From a virus, in IMG/VR virus record IMGVR_UViG_3300032217_001310, positions 1-21,664 of that record: a stretch of 21,664 bases of DNA; one strand, 5' to 3'. The notes beneath the pieces are model-generated. The model was given only the letters and a program-made list of their open reading frames with translations, did not search any database and was not told the origin of the DNA. This document shows positions 1,519-21,664 of the stretch, piece by piece. The first letter of the stretch is position 1; each line of letters starts with the position of its first letter. The position numbers and the translations under genes were made by a program.

Positions 1519-4500
1519 ATGGCAATAAGAATGCAACAGCGAAGAGGTACTGCTGCTCAGTGGATTTCTCTTAATGAAGGTGCTGGCCCAATTCTAGGTG
1601 CTGGCGAAATTGGTTTTGAAAGCGACACTGGCAAGTTTAAAATTGGTGATGGTACAAATCACTGGGTAGATTTAGCATATTTTGTTGATATTGATAAGAT
1701 GATTGAAGGAGCACCAGGGCTTCTAGATACAATTAATGAACTTGCTGCTGCAATTAATGATGACCCAGCATTCTTTACTACAGTTTCAACTGCACTTGGT
1801 ACAAAAGCACCTCTTGCATCCCCTACTTTTACAGGTACAGTAACTCTTCCTTCTGGAACTGTCACATCAACAATGATTGCAGATGGAACCATTGCTACAT
1901 CAGACATTGCAGACTCTGCAGTGACTTCAGCAAAGATTGCTAATGACACAATTGTTGATGCAGATATTAATACTTCTGCAGCAATTGCCCAATCTAAAAT
2001 TTCAGGTCTTACAACAGATCTTGCTGCTAAAGCCCCTCTTTCTTCCCCAACATTTACAGGAACAGTTTCAGGTGTTACAAAAACTCATGTTGGTCTTGCA
2101 AACGTAGACAATACAACAGATGCTGCAAAACCAGTGTCAACTGCTACTCAAACAGCACTTGACCTTAAGGCTAATCTTGCTTCACCTACTTTTACAGGTA
2201 CTGTAGCGGGTATTACAAAGACAATGGTAGGCTTGGGATCAGTTGATAATACAGCAGATTCAGCAAAGCCTGTTTCAACAGCAACACAGACAGCCTTGGA
2301 CGCTAAGGCACCACTAGCATCACCTACATTTACAGGTACAGTAAATGCAGCAGATCTAACACTTTCTGGAAATTTAACAGTAAATGGAACAACAACAACG
2401 GTTAATAGTAATGCAATTAATGTTAATAATCAAATAATTTTTGAAGGTGCTACTGCTGATGCATTTGAAACTACACTTACTGTAGTTGATCCTACTGCGG
2501 ATAGAACAATTACATTCCCTGATACAACTGGAACTGTAGCACTAACATCAGATGTTACAACACATGGAAACCTATCAGCAGCACATGGTGCTACAGGCGC
2601 AGTAGTAGGAACAACTAATACTCAAACTCTTACAAACAAAACTTTAACTTCTCCAGTAATTAATACACCAACTGGAATTACAAAATCAGATGTTGGTCTT
2701 GCTAACGTTGATAATACAACAGATGCCAATAAACCCGTATCTACAGCAACCCAAACAGCACTTGATCTTAAGGCTAATCTTGCTTCCCCAACATTTACAG
2801 GAACTGTAACACTTCCTTCAGGAACAGTTACATCAACAATGATTCTTGATGGAACTATCTTGAATGCAGATATTAATGCTTCAGCAGCAATTGCATTATC
2901 TAAGTTAGCAACAGACCCACTTGCTCGTGCAAACCACACTGGATCACAAGCAGCATCAACAATTTCAGATTTTACAGAAGCAGCACAAGATGCAGTTGGA
3001 GGAATGTTAGGCACTGGATTAACATATAATGACGCTGCTAATACAATTACAGTAGATACAACAAATATTCAACTAAGAGTAACTGGCGTTTCTGATACTG
3101 AAATTGGATATCTTGATGGAGTCACTTCTGCAATTCAAACTCAAATAGATGCTAAAGCACCAACAGCATCACCCACATTTACTGGTACAGTTTCAGGCGT
3201 AACTAAGTCAATGGTTGGACTAGGTTCTGTAGATAACACTGCAGATACTGCTAAACCAGTATCGACTGCACAGCAAACAGCACTTGATCTTAAAGCACCA
3301 ATTGCTTCCCCAACATTTACAGGTACAGTATCTGGTGTTACAAAAACCCACGTAGGACTTGGTAACGTAGATAATACTTCTGACGCCAATAAGCCTGTTT
3401 CAACTGCTACTCAGACAGCACTTGATGCTAAGTTAGCATCTGCAACAGCAGCAACTACCTATGCTCCAATTGCTTCACCAACATTTACAGGTACAGTTTC
3501 AGGTGTTACAAAAACTATGGTGGGACTTGGTTCTGTTGATAATACAGCAGATGCAGATAAACCAGTTTCTTCAGCAACAACAACAGCACTTGCTTTAAAG
3601 GCTAATCTTGCTTCCCCAACATTTACAGGTACTCTATCAGCAGCAGATTTAACAGTATCTGGTAATTTAACTGTTAACGGTACAACAACAAACCTTAACT
3701 CAACTAACCTAGTTATTGAAGATAAAAATATTGTTCTTGCAGATGTAGCAACACCTACAAATACTACTGCCGATGGCGCTGGTATTACTGTAAACGGCAC
3801 TACAAATAAAACATTTAACTGGGTTAATGCAACTTCTGCTTGGACTTCATCAGAACACATAGATCTTGCTTCAGGTAAGTCATATTATGTAAATGGAACA
3901 GCATTAAAAGATGCCACAGAAACACTTACAAATAAAACAGTTGCTCTTGGCTCAAATACAGTATCAGGAACAATTGCACAATTTAATACAGCGGTTACTG
4001 ATGCAGATTTTGCAACAATTGCAGGAACAGAAACATTAACAAATAAAACATTAACATCTCCAACTTTGACAACTCCAGTACTTGGTACACCTGCTTCGGG
4101 AACTCTTACTAATGCAACTGGATTGCCTTTAACTACTGGTGTAACTGGAACTCTCCCAATTGCAAATGGTGGTACAGGCGCAACTACTGCATCTACTGCA
4201 GCAGCAGCATTGCTTCCATCACAAACATCTAACTCAGGCAAATATCTTACAACAGATGGATCGGGAACACTTTCTTGGGGAACTGTTTCAGGATATTCAG
4301 CACCTACACTTGGTTCAACTTCAATTGCTTCTGGAGCAACAGTTACAACAATTGCAGGTCTTACATCTGTAACATCAACAGGATTTACAGGAGCACTTAC
4401 AGGAAATGCTTCTACTGCAACCACACTTCAAACAGCAAGAGCAATTAATGGAACCAACTTTGATGGTTCAGCAGCAATTACAATCACTGCAGCCAATCCA

Positions 4501-4809
4501 AATGCTCTTACAATTGGAACTGGACTTTCAGGAAGTTCTTACACAGGCTCTGGAGCAGTTACAATTGCTATAGATTCAACGGTAGCAACACTTACAGGAA
4601 CACAAACTTTAACAAATAAAACTCTTACATCTCCAACAATTAATAGTGCTACATCAAATAATATTACTTTAACTGGAACTGTTACAGCAGGTGGTTCAGC
4701 AGGAACTTCAGGATATGTTCTTCAATCAACTGGAAGTGGAGTTCAATGGGCTGCATCAGCAGGTGGCGGTGGAGCAGATGAAGTTAAACTTGTAATGGGT
4801 GCTTACTAA
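1519..4809 (+). CDS. Long repetitive tail fibre protein with Mtd-like N-terminal domain
   Basis: A 1096-residue protein. ATG 1519 has a GGAGG Shine-Dalgarno at 1506-1510. Residues 1-50 ([11 protein letters not shown], then [21 protein letters not shown]) match the short N-terminal domain found in many phage fibres and in the Bordetella phage tropism determinant, probably a virion-attachment part. From about residue 100 to 705 there are nine ASPTFTGTV-type units and six VGLxxVDNTxDxxKPVSTA units, the phage tail repeat family. A module near residues 710-810 (VEDKN-like [15 protein letters not shown], then [18 protein letters not shown]) is shared with the 1-1002 gene. Later come repeated [10 protein letters not shown] motifs and a C-terminus with a glycine run (AGGGGADEV). 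No catalytic motif or intramolecular chaperone was recognised. It probably forms a trimeric host-contact fibre. Confidence 0.8.
1804..3640 (+). repeat. Phage tail repeat array inside the long fibre gene
   Basis: Nine SPTFTGTV units lie between 1816 and 3636. Six VGLxxVDNTxDxxKPVS units begin near 2089, 2227, 2692, 3211, 3352 and 3520. Spacing is irregular because other modules are inserted, for example a [13 protein letters not shown] module near 2359. Synonymous divergence between copies shows that the units are old protein-level repeats and are not a recent DNA expansion. Confidence 0.8.
3649..3939 (+). repeat. Fibre module shared with the gene at 1-1002 (copy at about 181-471)
   Basis: Both copies encode about 97 residues with the same order of motifs: [11 protein letters not shown], DKNI, VATPTxxTADGxGIT, KTFNWV, AWTSSEH, LASGKxYYxNG and TETLxNKT. 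The same architecture in two neighbouring genes points to duplication or module exchange between the fibre genes. Confidence 0.75.
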
Positions 4810-5004: not shown

Positions 5005-7035
5005 ATGTCAGATACTTTTTCTTTTAGTTTATCAGATGAGTTTGTAAATAAATATAGCACAATTCCAGCACCATTTGGTTTTTCCGATGCAGGATCAAAC
5101 TCACTTGGAGAGATTACCTTTATTAGAACATATTCCAGAATGAAGGAAAATGGAACAAAAGAAAGATGGCATGAGGTTTGCAAGCGTGTAATTGAGGGTA
5201 TGTACTCAGTTCAAAAAAACCATGCTAAAGAAAATAGACTGCCATGGAATGATAATAAAGCCCAGAAGTCTGCACAAGAAGCCTTTCAAAGAATGTTTGA
5301 ATTAAAGTGGACACCACCAGGTCGTGGCCTTTGGGCATTTGGTACACCTATGACTATGGAAAAACGTAACTCTGCATCTCTTCAAAATTGTGCTATGGTT
5401 TCAACTCGTGATATTGATAGAAATGATCCAGGTGCCCTTTTTGCTTGGGTAATGGATGCATTAATGCTGGGTATTGGGGTTGGATTTGATACCCTTGGTC
5501 AAGATAAGGAAATGCCTATTTATGGCCCTACAGAGCCTTCAGTGACCTATGAAATACCTGATACTCGTGAGGGTTGGGTAGAGTCTGTAAGATATTTAAT
5601 AAACTCTTATTTACGTCAAAATCAAGCAATTCAAGAGTTTGATTATTCTTTAATTAGACCACTTGGTTCTCCTATTAAGGGGTTTGGTGGGGTGGCAAGC
5701 GGACCTCAGCCATTAATGGATTTACATAATAGAATCCGTAAAGTAATTGGATCTAGAGTTGGAGAAAAGTTAGACTCTCGTGCAATTGTAGATATTGTTA
5801 ATTTAATTGGAACTTGTGTTGTATCTGGAAATGTTCGTAGATCTGCAACGCTTGCTCTTGGAACACCAGAAGATCAAGGTTTTATTAATCTTAAAAATCC
5901 AGAAGTATTTCCAGAACGAAATTCCTACGATTCAGAAAATCCAGGATGGGCATGGATGAGTAATAATTCTATTGCTGCTGAAGTTGGTACAAAATATGAA
6001 GACTATGTTGATTTAATCGCAGATAATGGAGAGCCAGGATTTATTTGGTTAGATGTTGCAAGAAATTTTGGTCGTCTTGCAGATCCTGCAGATGGAAAAG
6101 ATTATCGTGTAATGGGATTTAATCCTTGTGCAGAACAACCACTTGAATCATATGAGTTGTGTACTCTTGTAGAAGTTCACCTTAATCGACATGAAGATAA
6201 AGAAGACTTTATCCGCACATTAAAATTTGCATATCTTTATGGAAAAACTGTAACGCTTATGCCAACACATTGGCAAAACACAAATGGAATTATGCAACGC
6301 AATCGTCGAATTGGAACATCTCTGACAGGTATTGCATCTTTTGCAGATACTAAGGGCATGCCTGCAGTGCGTGATTGGATGGATTCTGGATACAATAAAA
6401 TTCGTCATTATGACAAGAAATACTCTGAATGGCTATGTGTTCGTGAATCAATTCGTGTAACAACAGTTAAACCATCAGGCTCTGTTTCACTCCTATCTGG
6501 TGCAACTCCAGGAGTTCACTGGGGACCAGGTGGTGAGTTCTATCTTCGTGCTATTCGTTTTGGAAATACTGATCCAATGATGCATTTATTTAAAGCAGCG
6601 GGATATAAAATTGAACTAGACTTAGTATCAGCAAATACATCTGTAGTATATTTTCCAGTAGCATCAGGACATCCACGCTCTGAAAAAGATGTAAGTTTGT
6701 TTGAAAAGATTGGACTTGCAGCAACTGCTCAAAAATATTGGTCTGACAATGGCGTATCTGTAACACTATCATTTGATAAAGAAACAGAAACTAAACATAT
6801 TGCTCCAGCACTTCATCTTTATGAGGGAGAACTTAAAGCGGTTTCATTTTTGCCGATGGGTAATAAAACATACCCACAACAGCCATATACTCAAATAACA
6901 AGAGAAGAATATAACTCTTATGTAGGTACAATTGGTAAAATTGATTGGTCTGCTATTTATGATGGAGTAGAAAATCTTGAAGCACAAGGTGAGGCATACT
7001 GCTCAACCGATGCTTGCGAGATTAAGTTATATTAA
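5005..7035 (+). CDS. nrdJ: Adenosylcobalamin-dependent ribonucleoside-triphosphate reductase (class II)
   Basis: A 676-residue enzyme that reduces ribonucleotides to deoxyribonucleotides using a radical generated from coenzyme B12, feeding phage DNA synthesis in the cytoplasm. All hallmark residues of the monomeric Lactobacillus leichmannii-type enzyme can be placed: LQNC at C129 and C386 in YELC (the redox pair), C375 and E377 in NPCAEQ (thiyl radical site and general acid/base), and the C-terminal CSTDAC at C666/C671 (the thioredoxin-linked pair). The 11-residue spacing from C375 to C386 equals that in the family. VKPSGSVSLLSGATPG (about 488-503) fits the conserved phosphate-binding loop. 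It is shorter than the ~739-residue L. leichmannii enzyme, mostly between the first Cys and NPCAEQ. AAAGG at 4989-4993 may serve ATG 5005. The gene is isolated among structural genes. Confidence 0.93.
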   Translation: MSDTFSFSLSDEFVNKYSTIPAPFGFSDAGSNSLGEITFIRTYSRMKENGTKERWHEVCKRVIEGMYSVQKNHAKENRLPWNDNKAQKSAQEAFQRMFELKWTPPGRGLWAFGTPMTMEKRNSASLQNCAMVSTRDIDRNDPGALFAWVMDALMLGIGVGFDTLGQDKEMPIYGPTEPSVTYEIPDTREGWVESVRYLINSYLRQNQAIQEFDYSLIRPLGSPIKGFGGVASGPQPLMDLHNRIRKVIGSRVGEKLDSRAIVDIVNLIGTCVVSGNVRRSATLALGTPEDQGFINLKNPEVFPERNSYDSENPGWAWMSNNSIAAEVGTKYEDYVDLIADNGEPGFIWLDVARNFGRLADPADGKDYRVMGFNPCAEQPLESYELCTLVEVHLNRHEDKEDFIRTLKFAYLYGKTVTLMPTHWQNTNGIMQRNRRIGTSLTGIASFADTKGMPAVRDWMDSGYNKIRHYDKKYSEWLCVRESIRVTTVKPSGSVSLLSGATPGVHWGPGGEFYLRAIRFGNTDPMMHLFKAAGYKIELDLVSANTSVVYFPVASGHPRSEKDVSLFEKIGLAATAQKYWSDNGVSVTLSFDKETETKHIAPALHLYEGELKAVSFLPMGNKTYPQQPYTQITREEYNSYVGTIGKIDWSAIYDGVENLEAQGEAYCSTDACEIKLY

Positions 7036-7044
7036 TTTTTAGCC

Positions 7045-7053
7045 TGCTATAAT
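7045..7053 (+). promoter_or_regulatory. Extended -10 promoter TGCTATAAT, leaderless placement
   Basis: TG, C, then perfect TATAAT at 7048-7053. ATG 7062 lies only 8 bases after the last T, where transcription itself should start. No Shine-Dalgarno precedes the ATG, so the mRNA is probably leaderless. Confidence 0.7.
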
Positions 7054-7061
7054 TAGGATAT

Positions 7062-10000
7062 ATGTCAACTCCATCCAACTCATACGCAGAAAAAGTATAT
7101 GCAGAGCACCCACTTGCACTTTGGGCTTTGGATGATTCTGCTGACTACATAAGTTTGATTACTGAAGAACAAAGAGATATTGGTACGCTTTGGAATGGAA
7201 CTGGTGGTAGTTCTCTTCCAGCAATTACTGATTCTGCTGCTCCTTTTCAAAATAGCATAGTAACTGGATTGATATCTGACGTTCCAGCAACATCTGGTTT
7301 ATATTTATATGCCTTTAGTCCAAATTTAGCAAACTTTTCTGATTTGAATATGTCACTTGGAACTATAGCACTTTCTACTTATTTTTATTCAGATAGTGTT
7401 TATTTAGAAGAAATTCAAATTGGTTATGAATATATTGATCCAGTTACATCTGAAATTATTCAAAACACAAAATCATTCAATACTTCAATTTATCAACAAT
7501 GGTCTTTTATTTCTAATACTTTTGAACTTTTAAATATAGATGTAGAATTTAAAATGATAATAAAATTAAAATTTTATCCAGGTGGTGGAACTCCCGACGA
7601 CTATAAAGTTTACTTTAATGGAATGACTGTTGGACAATGGTCAGAAGAGTTTAACTCAGTTTCTTTAGGAGTACAAACTACAACATTACCAACAGACATA
7701 GCCTTACCAACATCTGATGTAATTGAAGCAAAAGAATATCAACTAGCAACAGATAATGCATATTATTTTGTTTCTAATAATTCTATTCTTGGAAGAAATT
7801 CTGGCATACCATTAGTTTATGGCGCTTCAAACATTACCAAATTATTACCAAATGAAAATTTGCCATCTGTTATTTTTCCTGGAAAAGGATTTTTAAATAA
7901 AGCAGGACAGTATAACGATTACACTGTTGAATTTTGGATGAAAGTAAGTTGTAATACCATAGATCCAGTGAGGATCTTTGGTCCAATAGCGTCAAATGAT
8001 GGAATTTATGTAGAGTCTGGATTTTTAACTTTAGTCGTAGGTGAAAGATTTAAATCACACTTTGTAGCAGAGTGGTCTAGACCAATGCTTGTTAATATTA
8101 GATTAATTAAAAATTCTATATCTGTATTGCTTAATGGAGAAGAAGTAATTTCTTTTTTAATTGATACTGCTAGCCTTCAATTGCCTGATATATTAAATGC
8201 AGAAGGAAAAAGCCAAGACTGGCTAGGTTTTTATTCAACAACAGATACAACACCATTTGAAATTGATTGTGTTTCTATTTATTCATACAATGTTCCAATT
8301 CCAGTTGCAAAACGTAGATGGGCATATGGACAGGCAGTAACTTCATCAGAAAAAATAGATTCATCATATAACGGATCATCAACATATATTGATTATCCTT
8401 TTTCAAATTATGTTGCAAACTATACATACCCAGATATGGCAAAATGGGAACAAGGCAATTTTGATAATCTTACTACTAATCTTTCATCATTAAGTAATTC
8501 ACAATACAGATTGCCAGAAATATTTATTGATACAAAAAATAAACAACAACTATATAATGATTGTAAAGAATTGCAAACAGAACAAGATAAATTTATTACG
8601 TTTAGGCCAAATGAAACATGGAATGATGTAAATTGTTATTTTAACTTTCCTAAATTTAATATTTTAAATGATGAGGTTCATTCATTTTTTGGTGTTTTTC
8701 AAATTGATGAAAATGATGTATCACAACAAATACTTATAAAAGTTTATAATACATTAACTGGAAATTTTTTTACTATTAAAAAAGATGGAAATGAAATTCA
8801 TTACTACTTAACATACAATGGCAGTGAGGAAGAAATATATACTAGTAATCCTTTTGTAGTTGGAGAAAAGTTTGTTGTTGGAATAAATATTAAATTATTA
8901 TCTGAATCTTTTGGTGAAAACATAACTTCATTTTTTGGAAATAGAAATGGTTTAAAAATGTATGTTGGTGGAGATGAAAGTGGAACTCAAACATTTACTG
9001 GAAAAATTTATAAATTTGGACAATGTACATCATTTAATACATCTATGATGAATATGCATTATTTAGATAATGGAATAGCAATGCTAGAAATGTCAGAAGA
9101 ATTTATACTACATTTAGCAAGTTATTCCATTTTTCCTGAAGTAGAATATGGACAATATTATTTAGATATTGAGACTTATGGTAGATGGGAAGATTATCTA
9201 CCTCTTTCATACTTTGCAAAAAATGTTAAAAATGATGTTGGCAATGAATATTATTCTTTAGACTTTTTACAATTCAATATTGGATTTCCTTCATCCGCAA
9301 AAACAGTAATAGATGGTCAAAATGAAGTTTTAGATACTATTAATTCAGAAGTTAGATCTTTTATTACATTTCAGTATATTGAAAATGGATCAAACTTGTT
9401 AGATGAAAATTTTACAACAACTGTTTTAGCAGACAAAAATAAAGTAGTTTATGTAGATAACTATACTGGTTGGGAAACAACTAAGTTTGAGGTTGTTGAT
9501 AATACAATTATATATCCGCCAAAATCTATTGATTTTAATAAATTAGCAATTGTTTATAGTGTAGAGTTTAAAAATAAAGGAACAACAACAAAACAAATTA
9601 ATTTAAGAAAATTAGAAATTTCTTCACAGGCATTAAATAATAATTCTTTTAATCCTATTGGAACTAGATTTGGAATTAATATTTTTCCATACAAAAAAAG
9701 TGGATTATATTATGATTACAAAAACAATAACCCAGTAAGCATTTATAAAAAAAGCACACCATATTTATATTTAACTAAAAATTCTGGAATAGAGTTAAAA
9801 CCTGTAAATGATATAAAACTAGAACGAGGAATAGCAATTCCAGTAAATTCAGAAAATGCTGCAAGTTATAAAATTAATGCAGTGCAACTTTGGCTTATGT
9901 ATGACTATGAAACTTTTTCAGATGTTCCAAAACAACTATTTAAAATACAATACAAAAATGATACTATTATTTTTTATATAGTAGCAAACAGTTTGCAAAA

Positions 10001-12589: not shown

Positions 12590-12598
12590 TGCTATAAT
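12590..12598 (+). promoter_or_regulatory. Extended -10 promoter TGCTATAAT before the protease gene
   Basis: TG, C, then perfect TATAAT at 12593-12598, 9 bases before ATG 12608. TTGAGA at 12568-12573 could be a weak -35 with a long 19-base spacer. No Shine-Dalgarno precedes the ATG, so the mRNA would be leaderless or carry a 1-3 base leader. It is the nearest clear promoter upstream of the capsid gene. Confidence 0.68.
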
Positions 12599-12607
12599 AG
12601 ATTCACC

Positions 12608-13882
12608 ATGTTTATAAATAAGGCTAATTTGACGACTGAAGGCAATAACGTTACAATATCCATGCCAATTGGCAAAGTCGATATTGAGCGTAGAATGGTC
12701 TCTGGTTTTGCTACACTAGATAATATTGACAAGCAAGATGATATTGTAGACACAGGTGCAAGCCTAGAAGCATTTAAGAATTTCCGTGGAAATCTAAGAG
12801 AAATGCACCAAGCAAATGCTGTTGGAAGAATTGTTTCTTTTAAAGAAGATAAGTATTTTGATCCAAATTCAAAAAAGTTTTATAGTGGAGTTTATGTATC
12901 TGCCTATGTTTCAAAGGGTGCACAAGATACTTGGGAAAAAGTTATTGATGGAACTCTAACTGGATTTTCTATTGGTGGAAGCATTAATAAAACTGAAGAT
13001 GCATATAACGCAGAACTAGATAAGTCAATTAGAATTATTAAAGAATATCAACTACATGAACTTTCACTTGTTGACAATCCAGCAAATCAATTTGCAAATA
13101 TTGTTTCAATTGAAAAAGTAAATGGAAAAAATGAAATTAGTGGTTATTTATCAAAAGCAGAAATTAATAATGTTTTTTGGTGTAATTCAGACGATATCGT
13201 TCAGGTTTCTGAGAAAATAAATAATGAATGTCCATCATGCACAAAAACAATGGAAAATATTGGTTTTGTTGAAAAGAATGATACAGACAATATAGACACA
13301 ATAAAGTTCTTAGTTGATAGTGCTAAAGGCATTAATACTTCTAAGATTACAAAGGAGGCAAACCAAATGACAGATGAAACAACAACAGTTGTTGAAAATG
13401 TTGAGGTCGCTCCAGAGGCAGATGCTACTACAGTTGAAAAGAATGACGCTTCAGTTGAAGCAACTGCTGTAGAGGTTGTTCCAGTTGAGGGTGATGTTAC
13501 TATTGCAGCAGAAGTTACAATAGAATCACCAGCACAAGCAGAAGCAACTGCAGAGGTATCAAAGTCAGATGAGACAGTCGTTTCGGCAGTTTCTGAAATT
13601 AAAGAGACTTTGACATCAGCCTTTAGCGATCTTGCAACAACAGTGAAATCTCTTCACGAACAAGTTGCAGAACTAAGTAAGTCAATTAACAGCGTTTCAA
13701 ATGAGGTCAGCGCAGTTAAGAATCAATATGATGAGTTTGGCAAGCGAGTAGATGCTGTAGAGCAAGACACCGCTTTCCGCAAGTCTGGCGATCTAGGCGA
13801 GATCGTGCAGTTTGAACCCTCAAAAGTTCAGAAATCCCTATGGGGCGGACGTTTCCTCAAAACAACCGACCTATTCAACTAA
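12608..13882 (+). CDS. Prohead serine protease fused to scaffold domain
   Basis: A 424-residue protein. Residues 1-170 look like a XkdF/S78-type prohead protease. H67 in REMHQANAVG and S121 in LTGFSIGG are the likely catalytic His and Ser, and E151 or D156 in LHELSLVDNPAN is the likely acidic residue. This enzyme would cut the capsid arm and scaffold during head maturation. Residues 186-223 hold a partial zinc-ribbon-like patch (C192, C208, C211 in CPSC). From M254 the character changes to an acidic, Ala/Val/Glu-rich segment, then a probable coiled coil (about 331-386) and a basic C-terminal segment ending LWGGRFLKTTDLFN, as expected for a scaffold. The start ATG 12608 lies 9 bases from a -10 box with no ribosome site. 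The 3' half appears to be translated separately as well (see 13367-13882). Confidence 0.8.
   Translation: MFINKANLTTEGNNVTISMPIGKVDIERRMVSGFATLDNIDKQDDIVDTGASLEAFKNFRGNLREMHQANAVGRIVSFKEDKYFDPNSKKFYSGVYVSAYVSKGAQDTWEKVIDGTLTGFSIGGSINKTEDAYNAELDKSIRIIKEYQLHELSLVDNPANQFANIVSIEKVNGKNEISGYLSKAEINNVFWCNSDDIVQVSEKINNECPSCTKTMENIGFVEKNDTDNIDTIKFLVDSAKGINTSKITKEANQMTDETTTVVENVEVAPEADATTVEKNDASVEATAVEVVPVEGDVTIAAEVTIESPAQAEATAEVSKSDETVVSAVSEIKETLTSAFSDLATTVKSLHEQVAELSKSINSVSNEVSAVKNQYDEFGKRVDAVEQDTAFRKSGDLGEIVQFEPSKVQKSLWGGRFLKTTDLFN
13351..13358 (+). promoter_or_regulatory. Internal ribosome-binding site AAAGGAGG within the protease gene
   Basis: A near-perfect Shine-Dalgarno sits inside the protease reading frame, 8 bases before the in-frame ATG 13367. 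It is stronger than the site of the protease gene itself, which has none. It is the main evidence for a nested scaffold gene. Confidence 0.75.
13367..13882 (+). CDS. Nested in-frame capsid scaffold protein (internal start)
   Basis: A predicted 171-residue product starting at ATG 13367 in the same frame as the protease gene and sharing its stop. AAAGGAGG at 13351-13358 gives a strong ribosome site at ideal spacing. The product has an acidic N-terminal half (many Glu, Val and Ala), a heptad-like helix at about residues 78-133 (SEIKETLTSAFSDLATTVK onward) and a basic tail rich in Lys/Arg and aromatic residues, which is how capsid scaffolds that bind the shell through the C-terminus look. Base composition rises from about 28% GC just before this start to 42-45% just after, and above 50% near the end, as in the highly expressed capsid gene. 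The known parallel is lambda Nu3 nested in gene C. That this start is used is inference. Confidence 0.65.
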   Translation: MTDETTTVVENVEVAPEADATTVEKNDASVEATAVEVVPVEGDVTIAAEVTIESPAQAEATAEVSKSDETVVSAVSEIKETLTSAFSDLATTVKSLHEQVAELSKSINSVSNEVSAVKNQYDEFGKRVDAVEQDTAFRKSGDLGEIVQFEPSKVQKSLWGGRFLKTTDLFN

Positions 13883-15103: not shown

Positions 15104-15352
15104 ATGTCTTATCCAGGTTCAGATTCAAACAATCCAATTAATGCAGAAGGCGCATTTGCAGCAGGTGGTGTGGGTGGTGCTATTATTAGTGCTGCAGGAG
15201 GATTAACAACTGATATGGTTTTAGGACAACTTGCAGGAAATTTTACAATGGGTGATACATCTGGACCAAATGCAGTAAATCCAAGCGGAAGACCAAATGG
15301 AGTAAGGCATGCAATACAAGGTGGATTTAAAAGTCATAGTAAAAAAAGATAA
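15104..15352 (+). CDS. Small protein resembling the capsid protein's N-terminal arm
   Basis: An 82-residue protein with AAGGAG at 15093-15098 before ATG 15104. Residues 3-61 align with residues 14-67 of the capsid protein. Both begin with YPGS, continue with a GGxGG patch and AAGxL, and end with the identical SGPNAVNP followed by one residue and Gly. After this the capsid protein enters its folded shell domain, whereas this protein ends in a short basic tail (RPNGVRHAIQGGFKSHSKKR). It contains no Cys and no membrane segment. It lies directly after the capsid gene behind a terminator. It could be a minor head protein that uses the same contact site as the capsid arm, a protease substrate, or an internal DNA-contacting protein. 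All three are inference. Confidence 0.65.
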   Translation: MSYPGSDSNNPINAEGAFAAGGVGGAIISAAGGLTTDMVLGQLAGNFTMGDTSGPNAVNPSGRPNGVRHAIQGGFKSHSKKR

Positions 15353-15384: not shown

Positions 15385-15747
15385 ATGTCAGATTTTAATT
15401 TTGAAAGCAATGATCCAACACCAGTTGTTGAAGATCATGATATTAATGTAGAAGCACCTGCAGCACCAATTGCAGAGTCAGAAGTTGTTGTAGAGGCTCC
15501 AGCAGTTGAGCCAGCAGTAGAGGCTCCAGCAGTTGTAGAGTCTGCTATAGAGCATAAGGCTGAAGAAAAGCCATCAAATGACAAGACAGCAATTTTGTAT
15601 GCGATGAAAGACTTGAAAATTTTGGGTCTTGGAATTCTACAAAAAGGTTACAATGCAGTTCCAGCAGGTAAAGCAAACAAATGGCTTGAAAAAGCATCTG
15701 TGCGTTTAGCATCTGATGAAGAAATTAAAACATATCACAATAAATAA
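15385..15747 (+). CDS. Possible head decoration protein, acidic N-terminus plus shared C-terminal domain
   Basis: A 120-residue protein; ATG 15385 follows AAGGAGG at 15373-15379. Residues 1-64 are acidic, disordered and rich in Glu, Ala, Pro and Val, with repeated EAPA-type motifs (EAPAAP, VEAPAVEPAVEAPAVVE). Residues 67-120 form a compact domain that aligns without gaps to residues 64-117 of the next gene, with 19 of 54 positions identical by my count. Shared features are LxxxGxG, GYNxV, KW and SVRxAxxEE. The domain is not one I can name. Position after the capsid gene suggests a head-associated protein with a shared capsid-binding domain and a variable exposed N-terminus, which is inference. 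It has its own promoter-like site. Confidence 0.6.
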   Translation: MSDFNFESNDPTPVVEDHDINVEAPAAPIAESEVVVEAPAVEPAVEAPAVVESAIEHKAEEKPSNDKTAILYAMKDLKILGLGILQKGYNAVPAGKANKWLEKASVRLASDEEIKTYHNK

Positions 15748-15757: not shown

Positions 15758-15780
15758 TAAAATAATATTTGGGAGGATTT

Positions 15781-16134
15781 ATGTCGTTTATCGATGAGTT
15801 TGGTAGTAAAACAGTTGGGGAACTTAAGACTTACGCTAAAGAAAATAAGATTGATTTATTTGGCGTCTCTAAAAAATCAGAAATATTAGAGGTTATTGCT
15901 TCATTTTTTCCAGAAGTTGGAAAAACAGAAGAACAATTAGATCAAATTAAAAAAACAAAAGAACCAGTAGAACAAGTTGCTGTTTTTTCAAAAAAGAATC
16001 TTTACTGGGGTGGTGTTGGTGCTTTGGTTCCAGGGTATAACATTGTTTCAAAAGAAATGTCTGAAAAATGGATTACACATAAATCAGTAAGAATTGCTAA
16101 ACCAGAAGAAGTGGCAACCTTTTACGGTAAATAA
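15781..16134 (+). CDS. Possible head decoration protein, SAP-like N-terminus plus shared C-terminal domain
   Basis: A 117-residue protein. I chose ATG 15781 over TTG 15769 because GGGAGG at 15771-15776 lies just upstream of the ATG, although the gap of 4 bases is short. Residues 8-42 (KTVGELKTYAKENKIDLFG, then KKSEILEVI) look like a helix-extended-helix fold of the SAP/Rho-N type, which in other proteins binds nucleic acid or partner proteins. Residues 64-117 are the same domain as the C-terminus of the preceding gene, with GYNIV, KW and SVRIAKPEE conserved. The pair is a tandem duplication with exchanged N-terminal halves. The head-decoration role is inference from position. The next gene starts two bases after its stop. 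Confidence 0.6.
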   Translation: MSFIDEFGSKTVGELKTYAKENKIDLFGVSKKSEILEVIASFFPEVGKTEEQLDQIKKTKEPVEQVAVFSKKNLYWGGVGALVPGYNIVSKEMSEKWITHKSVRIAKPEEVATFYGK

Positions 16135-18871: not shown

Positions 18872-19504
18872 ATGGCATATAGCCGTGGTACATCGACCAA
18901 TATTATCGTTGGTGCAGCAGCACTTTTTGTAGCAGACACTACACTTGATGCAGCCAGTCTAGAAGCATTTGTTGGTACAGAGTCTTTTAAAGACACACTA
19001 GCAGATTCTCCAGATTACACTAACGTTGGTTACACAATGAACGGACTTGAATTAGCATTCCAACCAAACTTCGGTGAGGTTGCTGTTGATCAAGTTCTTG
19101 ACGCTGCAAAACTTTACAAGCAAGGAATGCAGGTCACACTAAAGACAGCGTTTGCTGAAGCAACTCTAGAAAACCTATTGTTAGCAGTAGCATACAAAAA
19201 TTCAAACTTAAGCGGAACAAAGTCAACATCTAACGGACAGGTTCTTAACATGTCTGCTGGAGAAATTGGTGAATGTCCAGTAGAACGAGGAATCGTTGCT
19301 GTTGGTCCAGGAACTGGTGACTGTGCAGATTCTGCTTTTGTAGAGCGTGTATATACAGCATACCGTGCTTTGTCAATTGACAATGTAACAGTATCTGCAA
19401 AGCGTGATGCTCCGTCTATGTTCGAAGTCACATTCCGCATGCTTCCAGAAGACACTTCTGGTTCATATGGAAAAATTGTTGACCGCACATGGGCAATATC
19501 ATAA
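18872..19504 (+). CDS. Major tail (tube) protein
   Basis: A 210-residue protein with its own promoter, a ~50-base leader and GAGGTG before ATG 18872. The N-terminal TNIIVGAAALFVADT, the central YTMNGLELAFQPNFGEVAVDQ and the C-terminal ALSIDNVTVSAKRDAPSMFEVTFRMLP look like the beta-barrel with long loop of siphovirus tube proteins. Its position before the chaperone and tape measure genes is diagnostic. GC content (about 43%) is raised as in the capsid gene, fitting a protein made in many copies. A long hairpin lies 18 bases after the stop, as is common after tail tube genes. No sheath gene follows, which argues against a contractile tail. Confidence 0.83.
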   Translation: MAYSRGTSTNIIVGAAALFVADTTLDAASLEAFVGTESFKDTLADSPDYTNVGYTMNGLELAFQPNFGEVAVDQVLDAAKLYKQGMQVTLKTAFAEATLENLLLAVAYKNSNLSGTKSTSNGQVLNMSAGEIGECPVERGIVAVGPGTGDCADSAFVERVYTAYRALSIDNVTVSAKRDAPSMFEVTFRMLPEDTSGSYGKIVDRTWAIS

Positions 19505-19522
19505 TAATTTAATAATACACAA

Positions 19523-19556
19523 AACAGGGTCCACTTCTAACGAGGTGGGCCTTGTT
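19523..19556 (+). terminator. Long hairpin after the tail tube gene
   Basis: AACAGGGTCCAC (19523-19534) pairs with GTGGGCCTTGTT (19545-19556) over 12 positions, two of them G-U, and the helix can continue inward to a TAAC loop (about 16 pairs). Only a short T-poor tail (GCTTTG) follows, so it may be an intrinsic terminator of moderate strength or an mRNA 3'-end stabiliser. Confidence 0.6.
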
Positions 19557-19564
19557 GCTTTGTA

Positions 19565-19573
19565 TGCTAAAAT
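19565..19573 (+). promoter_or_regulatory. Weak extended -10 promoter TGCTAAAAT before the long chaperone
   Basis: TG, C, then TAAAAT at 19568-19573. It differs from TATAAT at one conserved base, unlike the promoter of the short chaperone at 20291-20299. Confidence 0.45.
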
Positions 19574-19593
19574 AGTTATAAACAGGGGGAATT

Positions 19594-20298
19594 TTGGCAA
19601 CTACAATATATCAAACTAAAACAGTTTATTTATTAGATAATACTGAGTTAGAAATTATTCCATTAAAAATAAAATATCTACGTGAATTTATGGAGTTTTT
19701 TCAAAACATAAAATTAGCAAAAAATGATGAAGAATCTATACAGATATTAACTGAATGTACAAGAGTTTGTATGAAGCAGTATTATCCACAACTTTCAAAA
19801 TCTATTGAAGATATAGAAGAAAATATAGACCTACCAACTATTTATAGTATTTTAGATATTGCTGCTGGAATTAAAATTAATGAAAAATCAAAAGAACCAG
19901 TTACTTCACAAGCACAAGAAAGTGGATCAACTTGGGATGAACTAGATCTAGCAAAAATAGAGTCAGAGGTTTTTTTGTTGGGCATTTGGAAAGACTATCA
20001 TGAACTAGAACTGTCTATGTCAATGCCTGAACTAATTGCTACATTAGCAAGCCAAAGAGAATTAGCATATGAAGAAAAGAAATTCCTTGCTGCAATTCAA
20101 GGTGTTGATTTAGATGAAGGAAATGGTAAGGGTCAAGATGAGTGGGAAGCGATGAAGGCTAGAGTGTTTAGTGGTGGAGCAACAAGTGATGGAAATGATG
20201 TTTTATCATTACAAGGACCAAAAGCAAAACAATTAGGGTTTGGTATCGGTATGGGACTTGATTATGAAGACAGTCGTGACCCAGGCGTTATGCTATAA
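19594..20298 (+). CDS. Tail assembly chaperone, long form (G+T fused)
   Basis: A 234-residue protein. The only usable start is TTG 19594 (ATT 19591 is the sole other option after the in-frame stop at 19579), with AGGGGGA at 19584-19590. Residues 1-96 are paralogous to the whole of the next protein: both open with MATT and share LxDxT, PLKI, LRxF, ECxxxxMxQYxPxL and DLPTxYxI. After a linker (QAQESGSTWDELDLAKIES) comes an additional domain (about 125-234) with YHELELSMSMPELIATL, compatible with the tape-measure-binding T part of lambda gpGT-type chaperones. In many siphoviruses this long form is produced only by ribosomal frameshifting; here it is a continuous frame. The rare start and weak promoter suggest lower expression than the short form. 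Confidence 0.72.
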   Translation: MATTIYQTKTVYLLDNTELEIIPLKIKYLREFMEFFQNIKLAKNDEESIQILTECTRVCMKQYYPQLSKSIEDIEENIDLPTIYSILDIAAGIKINEKSKEPVTSQAQESGSTWDELDLAKIESEVFLLGIWKDYHELELSMSMPELIATLASQRELAYEEKKFLAAIQGVDLDEGNGKGQDEWEAMKARVFSGGATSDGNDVLSLQGPKAKQLGFGIGMGLDYEDSRDPGVML

Positions 20299-20299
20299 T
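20291..20299 (+). promoter_or_regulatory. Extended -10 promoter TGCTATAAT overlapping the upstream stop codon
   Basis: TG, C, then perfect TATAAT at 20294-20299. The TAA stop of the long chaperone (20296-20298) is inside the hexamer. ATG 20326 follows after a leader of about 20 bases with AAGGAGGG at 20315-20322. Confidence 0.62.
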
Positions 20300-20325
20300 T
20301 GTTTTAACCTTAATAAGGAGGGTAA

Positions 20326-20649
20326 ATGGCAACGACAAAATATGAGGAAAATTCAGTAGAACTAATCGATGGAACAAAGATTAGCCTACGTCCTCTTAAG
20401 ATCTCTCTTCTTCGTCCTTTTTTGAAGAAGTTTGAGGGTGTCGCAGCGGTGGCGGAAGATAACGAAAAGTCTATGACACTTCTAATTGAATGTGTTCAAA
20501 TTGCAATGGAACAGTATAAGCCTGATTTGGCTACTGACATTTCTAAACTGGAAGACCTTTTAGATCTACCAACTGTATATAAGATTGTAGAAGCAGCATC
20601 TGGCGTAAAACTAACTGATGCTTCCGACATTCTTGCGATCAATGCATAA
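20326..20649 (+). CDS. Tail assembly chaperone, short form (G-like)
   Basis: A 107-residue protein. ATG 20326 has AAGGAGGG at 20315-20322, the best ribosome site in the window, and a perfect extended -10 promoter. Its full length aligns with the first ~96 residues of the preceding gene at roughly 40% identity by eye, including MATT at the start, PLKI, ECxxxxMxQYxPxL and DLPTxYxI. The C-terminal extension of the long form is absent. Short chaperones of this kind are thought to coat the tape measure protein and recruit tube subunits. No overlapping second frame long enough for a frameshift product follows; the tape measure starts 27 bases after its stop. Confidence 0.75.
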   Translation: MATTKYEENSVELIDGTKISLRPLKISLLRPFLKKFEGVAAVAEDNEKSMTLLIECVQIAMEQYKPDLATDISKLEDLLDLPTVYKIVEAASGVKLTDASDILAINA

Positions 20650-20676: not shown

Positions 20677-21664
20677 ATGGCTGATGTTAATGCTAATATT
20701 GGCATAAGCATTGATTCTTCGTCAGCCATAGCGGAATTAAAATCGCTACAACGACAAATTTCGCAGTTCCACACCTCTATTGCCAAATCAAGTGCAGCAG
20801 CAGCAACTGCTCAAGCGTCACTTCAGAAAAACTTTTTAAATAGCGTTAACTCAATTGGTGCATTCTCTGCACAAATGGTTAATGTTAAAACTAGTTCTCA
20901 AGCATTTACAGATTCACTTGAGAAAAATAAATTTAGCATGCGTGAATATTTCCGCTATGCAACTGCATCTACAAAAACATTTGGTAAAACATTTAGAACT
21001 GAATATGACACAATCGGCAGGGTAGCAGAAGAAAGAGTAAAAAAACTTCAAACCCAATATATTAAAATGGGACAAAGTACTAATGGCATCATGCAAGCCA
21101 TGGCAATTACTCCAAAAAATCTTGACATGTCAAGCATATCAACTCAAACAGCCTTGGCTGCTCAAAAACAACAATTGTTTAATCAGTTATTAAAACAAGG
21201 ATCTACTAATCTTCTTAATTTTGGTAAAAATACTCAGTGGGCTGGCCGACAGTTGATGGTTGGTTTTAGTCTTCCACTTGCAGCCTTTGGAATGACTGCA
21301 ACTAAAGCATTTAATCAAATGGAAACTGCAGCAATTGCATTTAAAAAAGTTTATGGAGATTTAGGAACAACACAAGCAGAATCTGCACAGGCTCTGGCAG
21401 GCATCCAGGACCTTGCTAAGGGGTTTACACAATATGGCATTGCAGCATCAGCAACAGTAGATTTGGCCTCCAAAGCAGCAGCAGCAGGCTTTAAAGGGGT
21501 AGACCTACAGCAACAGACCACACAGGCAACAAGGCTATCGGTTCTTGGTCAAATAGATCAACAACAAGCACTACAAACTACAATTGCTTTGCAAAATGCT
21601 TTTGCCATATCTAGTGCAGACCTTGGAAATACAATTGACTTCCTTAACGCAGTAGAAAACCAAA
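20677..21664 (+). CDS. Tail tape measure protein, 3' end outside window
   Basis: The frame is open from ATG 20677 to the end of the window (329 codons). AGAGG at 20659-20663 is a weak, distant ribosome site. The visible part is long-helical and Ala/Gln-rich. A predicted coiled-coil region covers about residues 15-170. LMVGFSLPLAAFGMTATKAF (193-212) is a hydrophobic segment followed by QMETAAIAFKKVYGDLG, a pattern seen near the start of TP901-type tape measures. The protein spans the tube lumen and sets tail length. Position directly after the chaperones confirms the call. Total length cannot be known from this window. Confidence 0.87.
   Translation, partial: MADVNANIGISIDSSSAIAELKSLQRQISQFHTSIAKSSAAAATAQASLQKNFLNSVNSIGAFSAQMVNVKTSSQAFTDSLEKNKFSMREYFRYATASTKTFGKTFRTEYDTIGRVAEERVKKLQTQYIKMGQSTNGIMQAMAITPKNLDMSSISTQTALAAQKQQLFNQLLKQGSTNLLNFGKNTQWAGRQLMVGFSLPLAAFGMTATKAFNQMETAAIAFKKVYGDLGTTQAESAQALAGIQDLAKGFTQYGIAASATVDLASKAAAAGFKGVDLQQQTTQATRLSVLGQIDQQQALQTTIALQNAFAISSADLGNTIDFLNAVENQ

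Follow-up and report, generated by a model that had tools for sequence, protein, structure and literature searches.

A 21,664-base record of a tailed phage from metagenomic sequence, analysed here over its whole length and referred to below as the window, very probably (we would put the probability at roughly 0.86) encodes a tail chaperone pair of the gpG/gpGT kind as two genes that derive from one duplication of a frameshifting cassette, with the balance between the two products presumably set by initiation. In most long-tailed phages a single gene yields two tail helper proteins, one short and one long, by means of a ribosomal slip, and this tail chaperone frameshift is among the most conserved recoding events in phages. 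The observations behind our reading are the paralogy and synteny of the two genes, the presence of frameshifting relatives, a single duplication, a lost slippery site, and promoter and Shine-Dalgarno (SD) signals that differ between the two genes in a conserved manner.

Gene pair and genomic context

The window holds a run of structural genes in which profile matches identified a portal, a head maturation protease, a virion structural protein (the presumed capsid) and several small genes, followed by the major tail protein gene, a long gene, a short gene, and the start of an open reading frame (ORF) at the tape measure position, these last four all on the plus strand. The major tail protein gene (18872..19504) matches phrog_2175 (2e-33), and the gene at the same position is so annotated in phages BillNye, Moab, Francob, and EGole. 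The long gene (19594..20298) starts with TTG and encodes a putative tail assembly chaperone of 234 aa, a GT-like in-frame fusion consisting of a G domain (residues 1-99), a linker (about residues 100-113), and a T domain (residues 114-234). The short gene (20326..20649) starts with ATG and encodes a putative G-like chaperone of 107 aa, the copy resembling the ancestral G, and the next ORF (20677..21664), which runs off the window, is assigned by its position and by the annotated tape measure protein of relatives. The ORFs, starts, and coordinates of both chaperone genes are as a preliminary description had given them, and its view that the 107-residue protein matches the N-terminal domain of the 234-residue protein was borne out: residues 1-99 of the long protein align with residues 1-100 of the short one at 40% identity and 71% positives with 1 gap (E 3e-27), and both proteins match phrog_10504 (4e-21 for the long and 3e-21 for the short). 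The C-terminus of the long protein matches phrog_10474. Judged by these alignments, the long and short genes are true paralogs.

The pair sits between the major tail protein and the tape measure position, as do the G/GT chaperones of lambda-type phages, with an N-terminal domain common to both products and a T domain extra in the longer one, and from this position and the homology to proteins annotated as tail assembly chaperones we infer that both have this function. The likeness to lambda gpG/gpGT extends to the placement before the tape measure gene, to a short protein that corresponds to the N-terminal part, to a long protein that adds the T domain, and to the use of a -1 frameshift by homologous relatives of the window; unlike in lambda, there are two genes, T is fused in frame in the long one, and the slippery site has been lost. 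No match to lambda gpG families was found in the libraries searched. Structure models, predicted from an alignment built from IMG/VR loci, had the same strand-strand-helix order in both proteins at low confidence (pLDDT 53 and 62). Structure prediction had been proposed earlier as a check on whether the two are related folds; the shared order of secondary-structure elements agrees with relatedness and unrelated folds were not seen, at that low confidence. Fold searches with both models gave no significant match, the best chaperone match being HK97 gp13 (2ob9), which came second for the long model with an E of 0.81 at low pLDDT and was absent for the short model, and PDB sequence searches with both profiles returned nothing useful.

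Two arrangements among relatives

By tblastn, matching records numbered 127 for Streptomyces phages and 5 for Rhodococcus, and at this locus Streptomyces and Rhodococcus relatives have a single G with T in the -1 frame. At the corresponding position, BillNye, Moab, Francob, and EGole have one G-like ORF followed by a T-like ORF in another frame, and in Francob, NiceHouse, and Francesca G and T are annotated as joins. Phages BillNye, Moab, Francob, and EGole, Streptomyces phages of the Stanwilliamsviridae, match the window in gene order and, at about 34-45% identity, in their G and T domains; they differ in having a single copy, T in the -1 frame, and in most of them a C_CCA_AAT slippery site. 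The layout of the window, an in-frame G=T fusion with another G after it, is shared by every one of the best 80 IMG/VR loci. The loci of relatives were collected as the best 80 matches of each scan. The scans overlapped in many contigs, and our counts refer to distinct sequences: of all listed loci, 192 have T in the -1 frame behind a single G and 123 have the G=T fusion with another G (two of them copies of the window itself), which reduce to 121 frameshift and 100 fused sequences (window included) among the matches listed. Among these matches, T lies in the -1 frame in all 121 distinct single-G loci, and a short gene is present in 99 of the 99 distinct fused relatives readable downstream; the only listed fused locus without it, L306, ends just downstream. 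Transitional loci, meaning a frameshift with a second G or a fusion without one, were not seen among the about 320 loci listed, and no host or prophage relative turned up in a scan of genome contigs. The lineage consists of freshwater relatives of Stanwilliamsviridae, an actinophage family. The preliminary description had called for a search of related phages for the ancestral frameshift arrangement, and such frameshifting single-copy relatives do exist, including close sister lineages.

The window is a 21.7 kb fragment of a metagenomic virus record, and an assembly or sequencing error that joined two frames, or a chance arrangement of one contig, could in principle produce a fusion; the arrangement recurs in 99 further distinct sequences from independent contigs, and with the relatives refuting it we regard the chance of such an error as negligible.

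Slippery site and its loss

In the distinct frameshift loci among the matches listed, an X_XXY_YYZ heptamer lies in the G/T overlap in 114 of 121, as CCCAAAC (85), CCCAAAT (12), AAATTTG (9), and few others. Seven frameshift loci have no canonical heptamer, among them L004, L103, and similar Samistivirus-type loci with CCCGGAA; those of the seven that were inspected are of the Samistivirus type. These Samistivirus-type loci (L004, L103, L176, L177, L178, and L179) have T in the -1 frame and GACCCGGAA in place of the GACCCAAAC of other frameshift loci; this may be an unusual slip site.

In the fused genes, the former slip region is now a linker (for example INKKSEEPVKDQA), and the sequence SGxxWxxLDLA of the former -1 frame comes after it. 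The long gene could in theory still be recoded, with an internal shift that gives a shortened G-like protein and with the short gene as an extra copy, and heptamers such as AAAAAAG do occur in A-rich stretches near the junction of some long genes. A total of 15 junction heptamers were counted over the 100 distinct fused loci, at scattered positions and with no conserved slippery site, compared with the one fixed site of the frameshift clade, and the long gene of the window has no heptamer at the junction; we therefore consider continued recoding very improbable. The short genes hold a trace of the slip region under our preferred reading of a duplicated cassette, as several retain the ancestral G's tail in the zero frame (KLTDANSLLNTVLANN, compared with KMDDPNLLAAAVLAGQN). 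In those that do, GAC-CCA-AAC has become GAT-GCA-AAC, and in the 22 short genes where a DAN motif can be recognised, GCA or GCT stands in place of the proline codon CCA of the slip site.

Phylogeny of the G and T domains

A first G-domain tree recovered a long clade (99/97), a short clade (99/93), and the two together (100/98). It placed Samistivirus next to the fused clade at a time when sister frameshifters were absent from the sample, a placement superseded by a larger sample. With sister lineages added, the larger tree again recovered the long clade (100/99), the short clade (97/70), and both together, the branch joining long and short being supported at only 88/79 in this largest sample and the trees resting on about 100 columns. 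The frameshifting sisters (L190, L199, L196, L219, L229, L274, L302, L318, L315, and L270) have G proteins with a mean identity of 57% to the short protein and 41% to the long one. In a T-domain tree rooted on Rhodococcus, the fused group falls among the frameshifters. One duplication nested within frameshifting lineages is the simplest history. The earlier proposal that gene duplication had replaced recoding gained strong support from the frameshifting relatives, from the absence of a conserved slippery site in the fused gene, and from trees with one nested duplication.

Stem lengths in the larger tree were 0.94 for the long G domain and 0.08 for the short one, and the long G domain is only 38% identical to the short protein of the same locus. 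By these measures, the short copy is little changed from the ancestral G, and the long copy diverged fast in its G domain. Such rapid divergence after duplication would also be expected of subfunctionalised copies, in which the long protein is a dedicated initiator with its own partners, the short protein is another, and no regulated excess of the short form is needed. The expression signals described below bear on this alternative.

Expression signals

The gap that separates the long gene from the major tail protein gene contains an intrinsic-terminator-like hairpin of 15 pairs (19523..19556, plus strand; fold -21.9 kcal/mol), and a GTGGG-type stem remnant is found before 60 of 61 distinct long genes. 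Downstream on the same strand lie a putative extended -10 of the long gene, TGCTAAAAT (19565..19573), 20 nt before the start in the window, and an SD-like AGGGGG (19584..19589; duplex -9.4 kcal/mol). The short gene is preceded by a putative extended -10, TGCTATAAT (20291..20299, plus strand), which overlaps the stop codon of the long gene, and by a strong SD, AAGGAGGG (20315..20322, plus strand; duplex -11.6 kcal/mol). The preliminary description had named -10 elements for both genes; statistics from the window alone gave matches not above chance at either gene, while conservation over about 60 distinct relatives exceeds chance, and extended -10s are present and conserved in 61 of 61 loci. Before the long gene, TG.TA...T is found in all 61 distinct close loci, the window among them, compared with 6% of random 40-mers, mostly as TGNTA(G/A)AAT, and the element lies 6-9 nt before the ATG in 60 of the 61. 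An SD core is absent there in 60 of 61 distinct loci, and by sequence the upstream layout of the long gene in these 60 loci is that of a leaderless message. Before the short gene, TGNTATAAT occurs 23-30 nt before the ATG in 61 of 61 distinct loci (random 50-mers containing it, 1.6%), with an SD core in all 61. Mean anti-SD duplex energies, calculated with what we take to be the 16S tail, are -3.0 kcal/mol for the long gene, -10.1 for the short gene, and, in the frameshift clade, -10.5 for the single G. In the freshwater frameshift clade, G is likewise preceded by a promoter (48 of 49) and an SD (49 of 49), and because this layout of promoter plus SD is the same, the control region of the short gene is of the ancestral type.

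The long and short genes differ in -10 and SD in 60 of 61 distinct loci, the exception being the SD of the window itself, whose long gene deviates in its TTG start, its AGGGGG leader, and the distance of its -10. This SD-like leader is nearly unique to the window, with one comparable true case (L286). The long gene starts with ATG in all 80 close relatives (the best 80), so that the TTG and ATG starts noted in the preliminary description are correct for the window and the TTG is peculiar to it. Four TTG long-gene starts in the wider set look like artefacts of the start caller. In mycobacteria, leaderless initiation at ATG is about as efficient as leadered initiation, and TTG initiates only with a leader and SD (PMC4633059). 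By analogy, the TTG rule fits the leadered TTG exception of the window, and the comparable leaderless efficiency weakens the claim that leaderless means weak, since a missing SD need not imply weak translation. The suggestion that promoter and start strength set the long:short ratio is plausible from these signals, although its start-codon part is not general.

No terminator was seen between the long and short genes in the window, so the short gene is expected on both transcripts. That the short gene is predicted to be transcribed from both promoters, and that the difference in promoter and SD keeps its direction across the distinct loci checked, argues against subfunctionalised copies, although leaderless starts can be strong in actinobacteria. 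The known role of the ratio points the same way: a G:GT ratio of about 30:1 is crucial in lambda (PMC5009743) and a permanently fused GT gives non-infecting particles in TP901-1 (PMC4493119), indicating that the ratio is needed for functional tails. On these grounds a lineage with fused GT should require G from another source, and every listed fused relative readable downstream does have one. Overall we regard subfunctionalisation without a regulated excess as unlikely.

Beyond the chaperone genes, TGCTATAAT is also found at 7045-7062 and 12590-12608, where two further genes have their start codons 8-9 nt downstream, and elements resembling it occur in several more gaps of the window. It may be common in this phage for a gene to have its own promoter and a leaderless start.

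Proposed history and comparison with known systems

Under our preferred reading, a single gene of the ancestor would have yielded both G and GT through a -1 frameshift at C_CCA_AAY, and the cassette would have been duplicated a single time in one freshwater lineage related to Stanwilliamsviridae. In steps whose order we infer, the upstream copy would have fused G to T in frame, losing the slippery site and gaining the linker, and the downstream copy would have lost T while keeping the ancestral G sequence, the ancestral-type promoter, and the SD. By analogy with lambda, many short copies would coat the tape measure protein, and few long copies would also recruit the major tail protein through the T domain. 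The presumed balance of long to short protein, its importance likewise presumed, would be set by initiation and not by slip efficiency, the long gene having a weaker -10 and a mostly leaderless start and the short gene a consensus -10 and a strong SD on both transcripts.

We take gp26 and gp51 to be the T4 chaperone genes. They match each other (E 2e-6) and lie on opposite strands, whereas the genes of the window are in tandem, each with its own promoter, and no homology to gp26 or gp51 was detected (hhalign probabilities 1.4% and 0.7%); with no sequence link, the two-gene solution in these relatives of Stanwilliamsviridae, an actinophage family, apparently arose independently. According to the description in PMC10885494, which cites Vladimirov, Gautam and Davidson (2022, Virology 566:9), some T4-like phages encode the short protein and the long fusion in two genes and do without frameshifting. 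Going by that description, the separate short and long genes, with the long one a fusion, are a likeness to the window, and the two-gene principle was already known. Unlike in the T4-like case, frameshifting sister lineages are at hand for comparison, and we consider this clean comparison set and the paired initiation signals to be new.

A large natural clade that dropped the frameshift once, with close sisters that keep it, allows the states before and after to be compared directly, where selection on the frameshift itself as opposed to the resulting ratio is hard to test. We give about even odds to the fuller claim that the frameshift was replaced once, in a lineage unrelated to T4, by duplication and paired initiation signals, with the ratio as the selected trait, recoding as one route, and the G domain of the GT copy specialising once freed from sharing one sequence. 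For annotators, two tail chaperone genes need not imply a missed frameshift.

Other features of the window

A second tandem paralog pair lies in the structural block: the adjacent genes at 15385-15747 and 15769-16134 have paralogous C-terminal 50 residues (38%, E 3e-10) and different N-termini. An 82-aa ORF after the presumed capsid gene (15104-15352) repeats the capsid N-terminal motifs YPGS and SGPNAVNPxG in a weak match (E 0.034). The gene at 1519-4809 encodes a 1096-aa protein with an Mtd_N domain (1e-10) and many SPTFTGTV-type repeats, likely a receptor-binding fibre, and a B12-dependent (class II) ribonucleotide reductase gene (5005-7035; PF17975 4e-32, PF21995 1e-15) lies inside a block of receptor-binding or tail-fibre-like genes.
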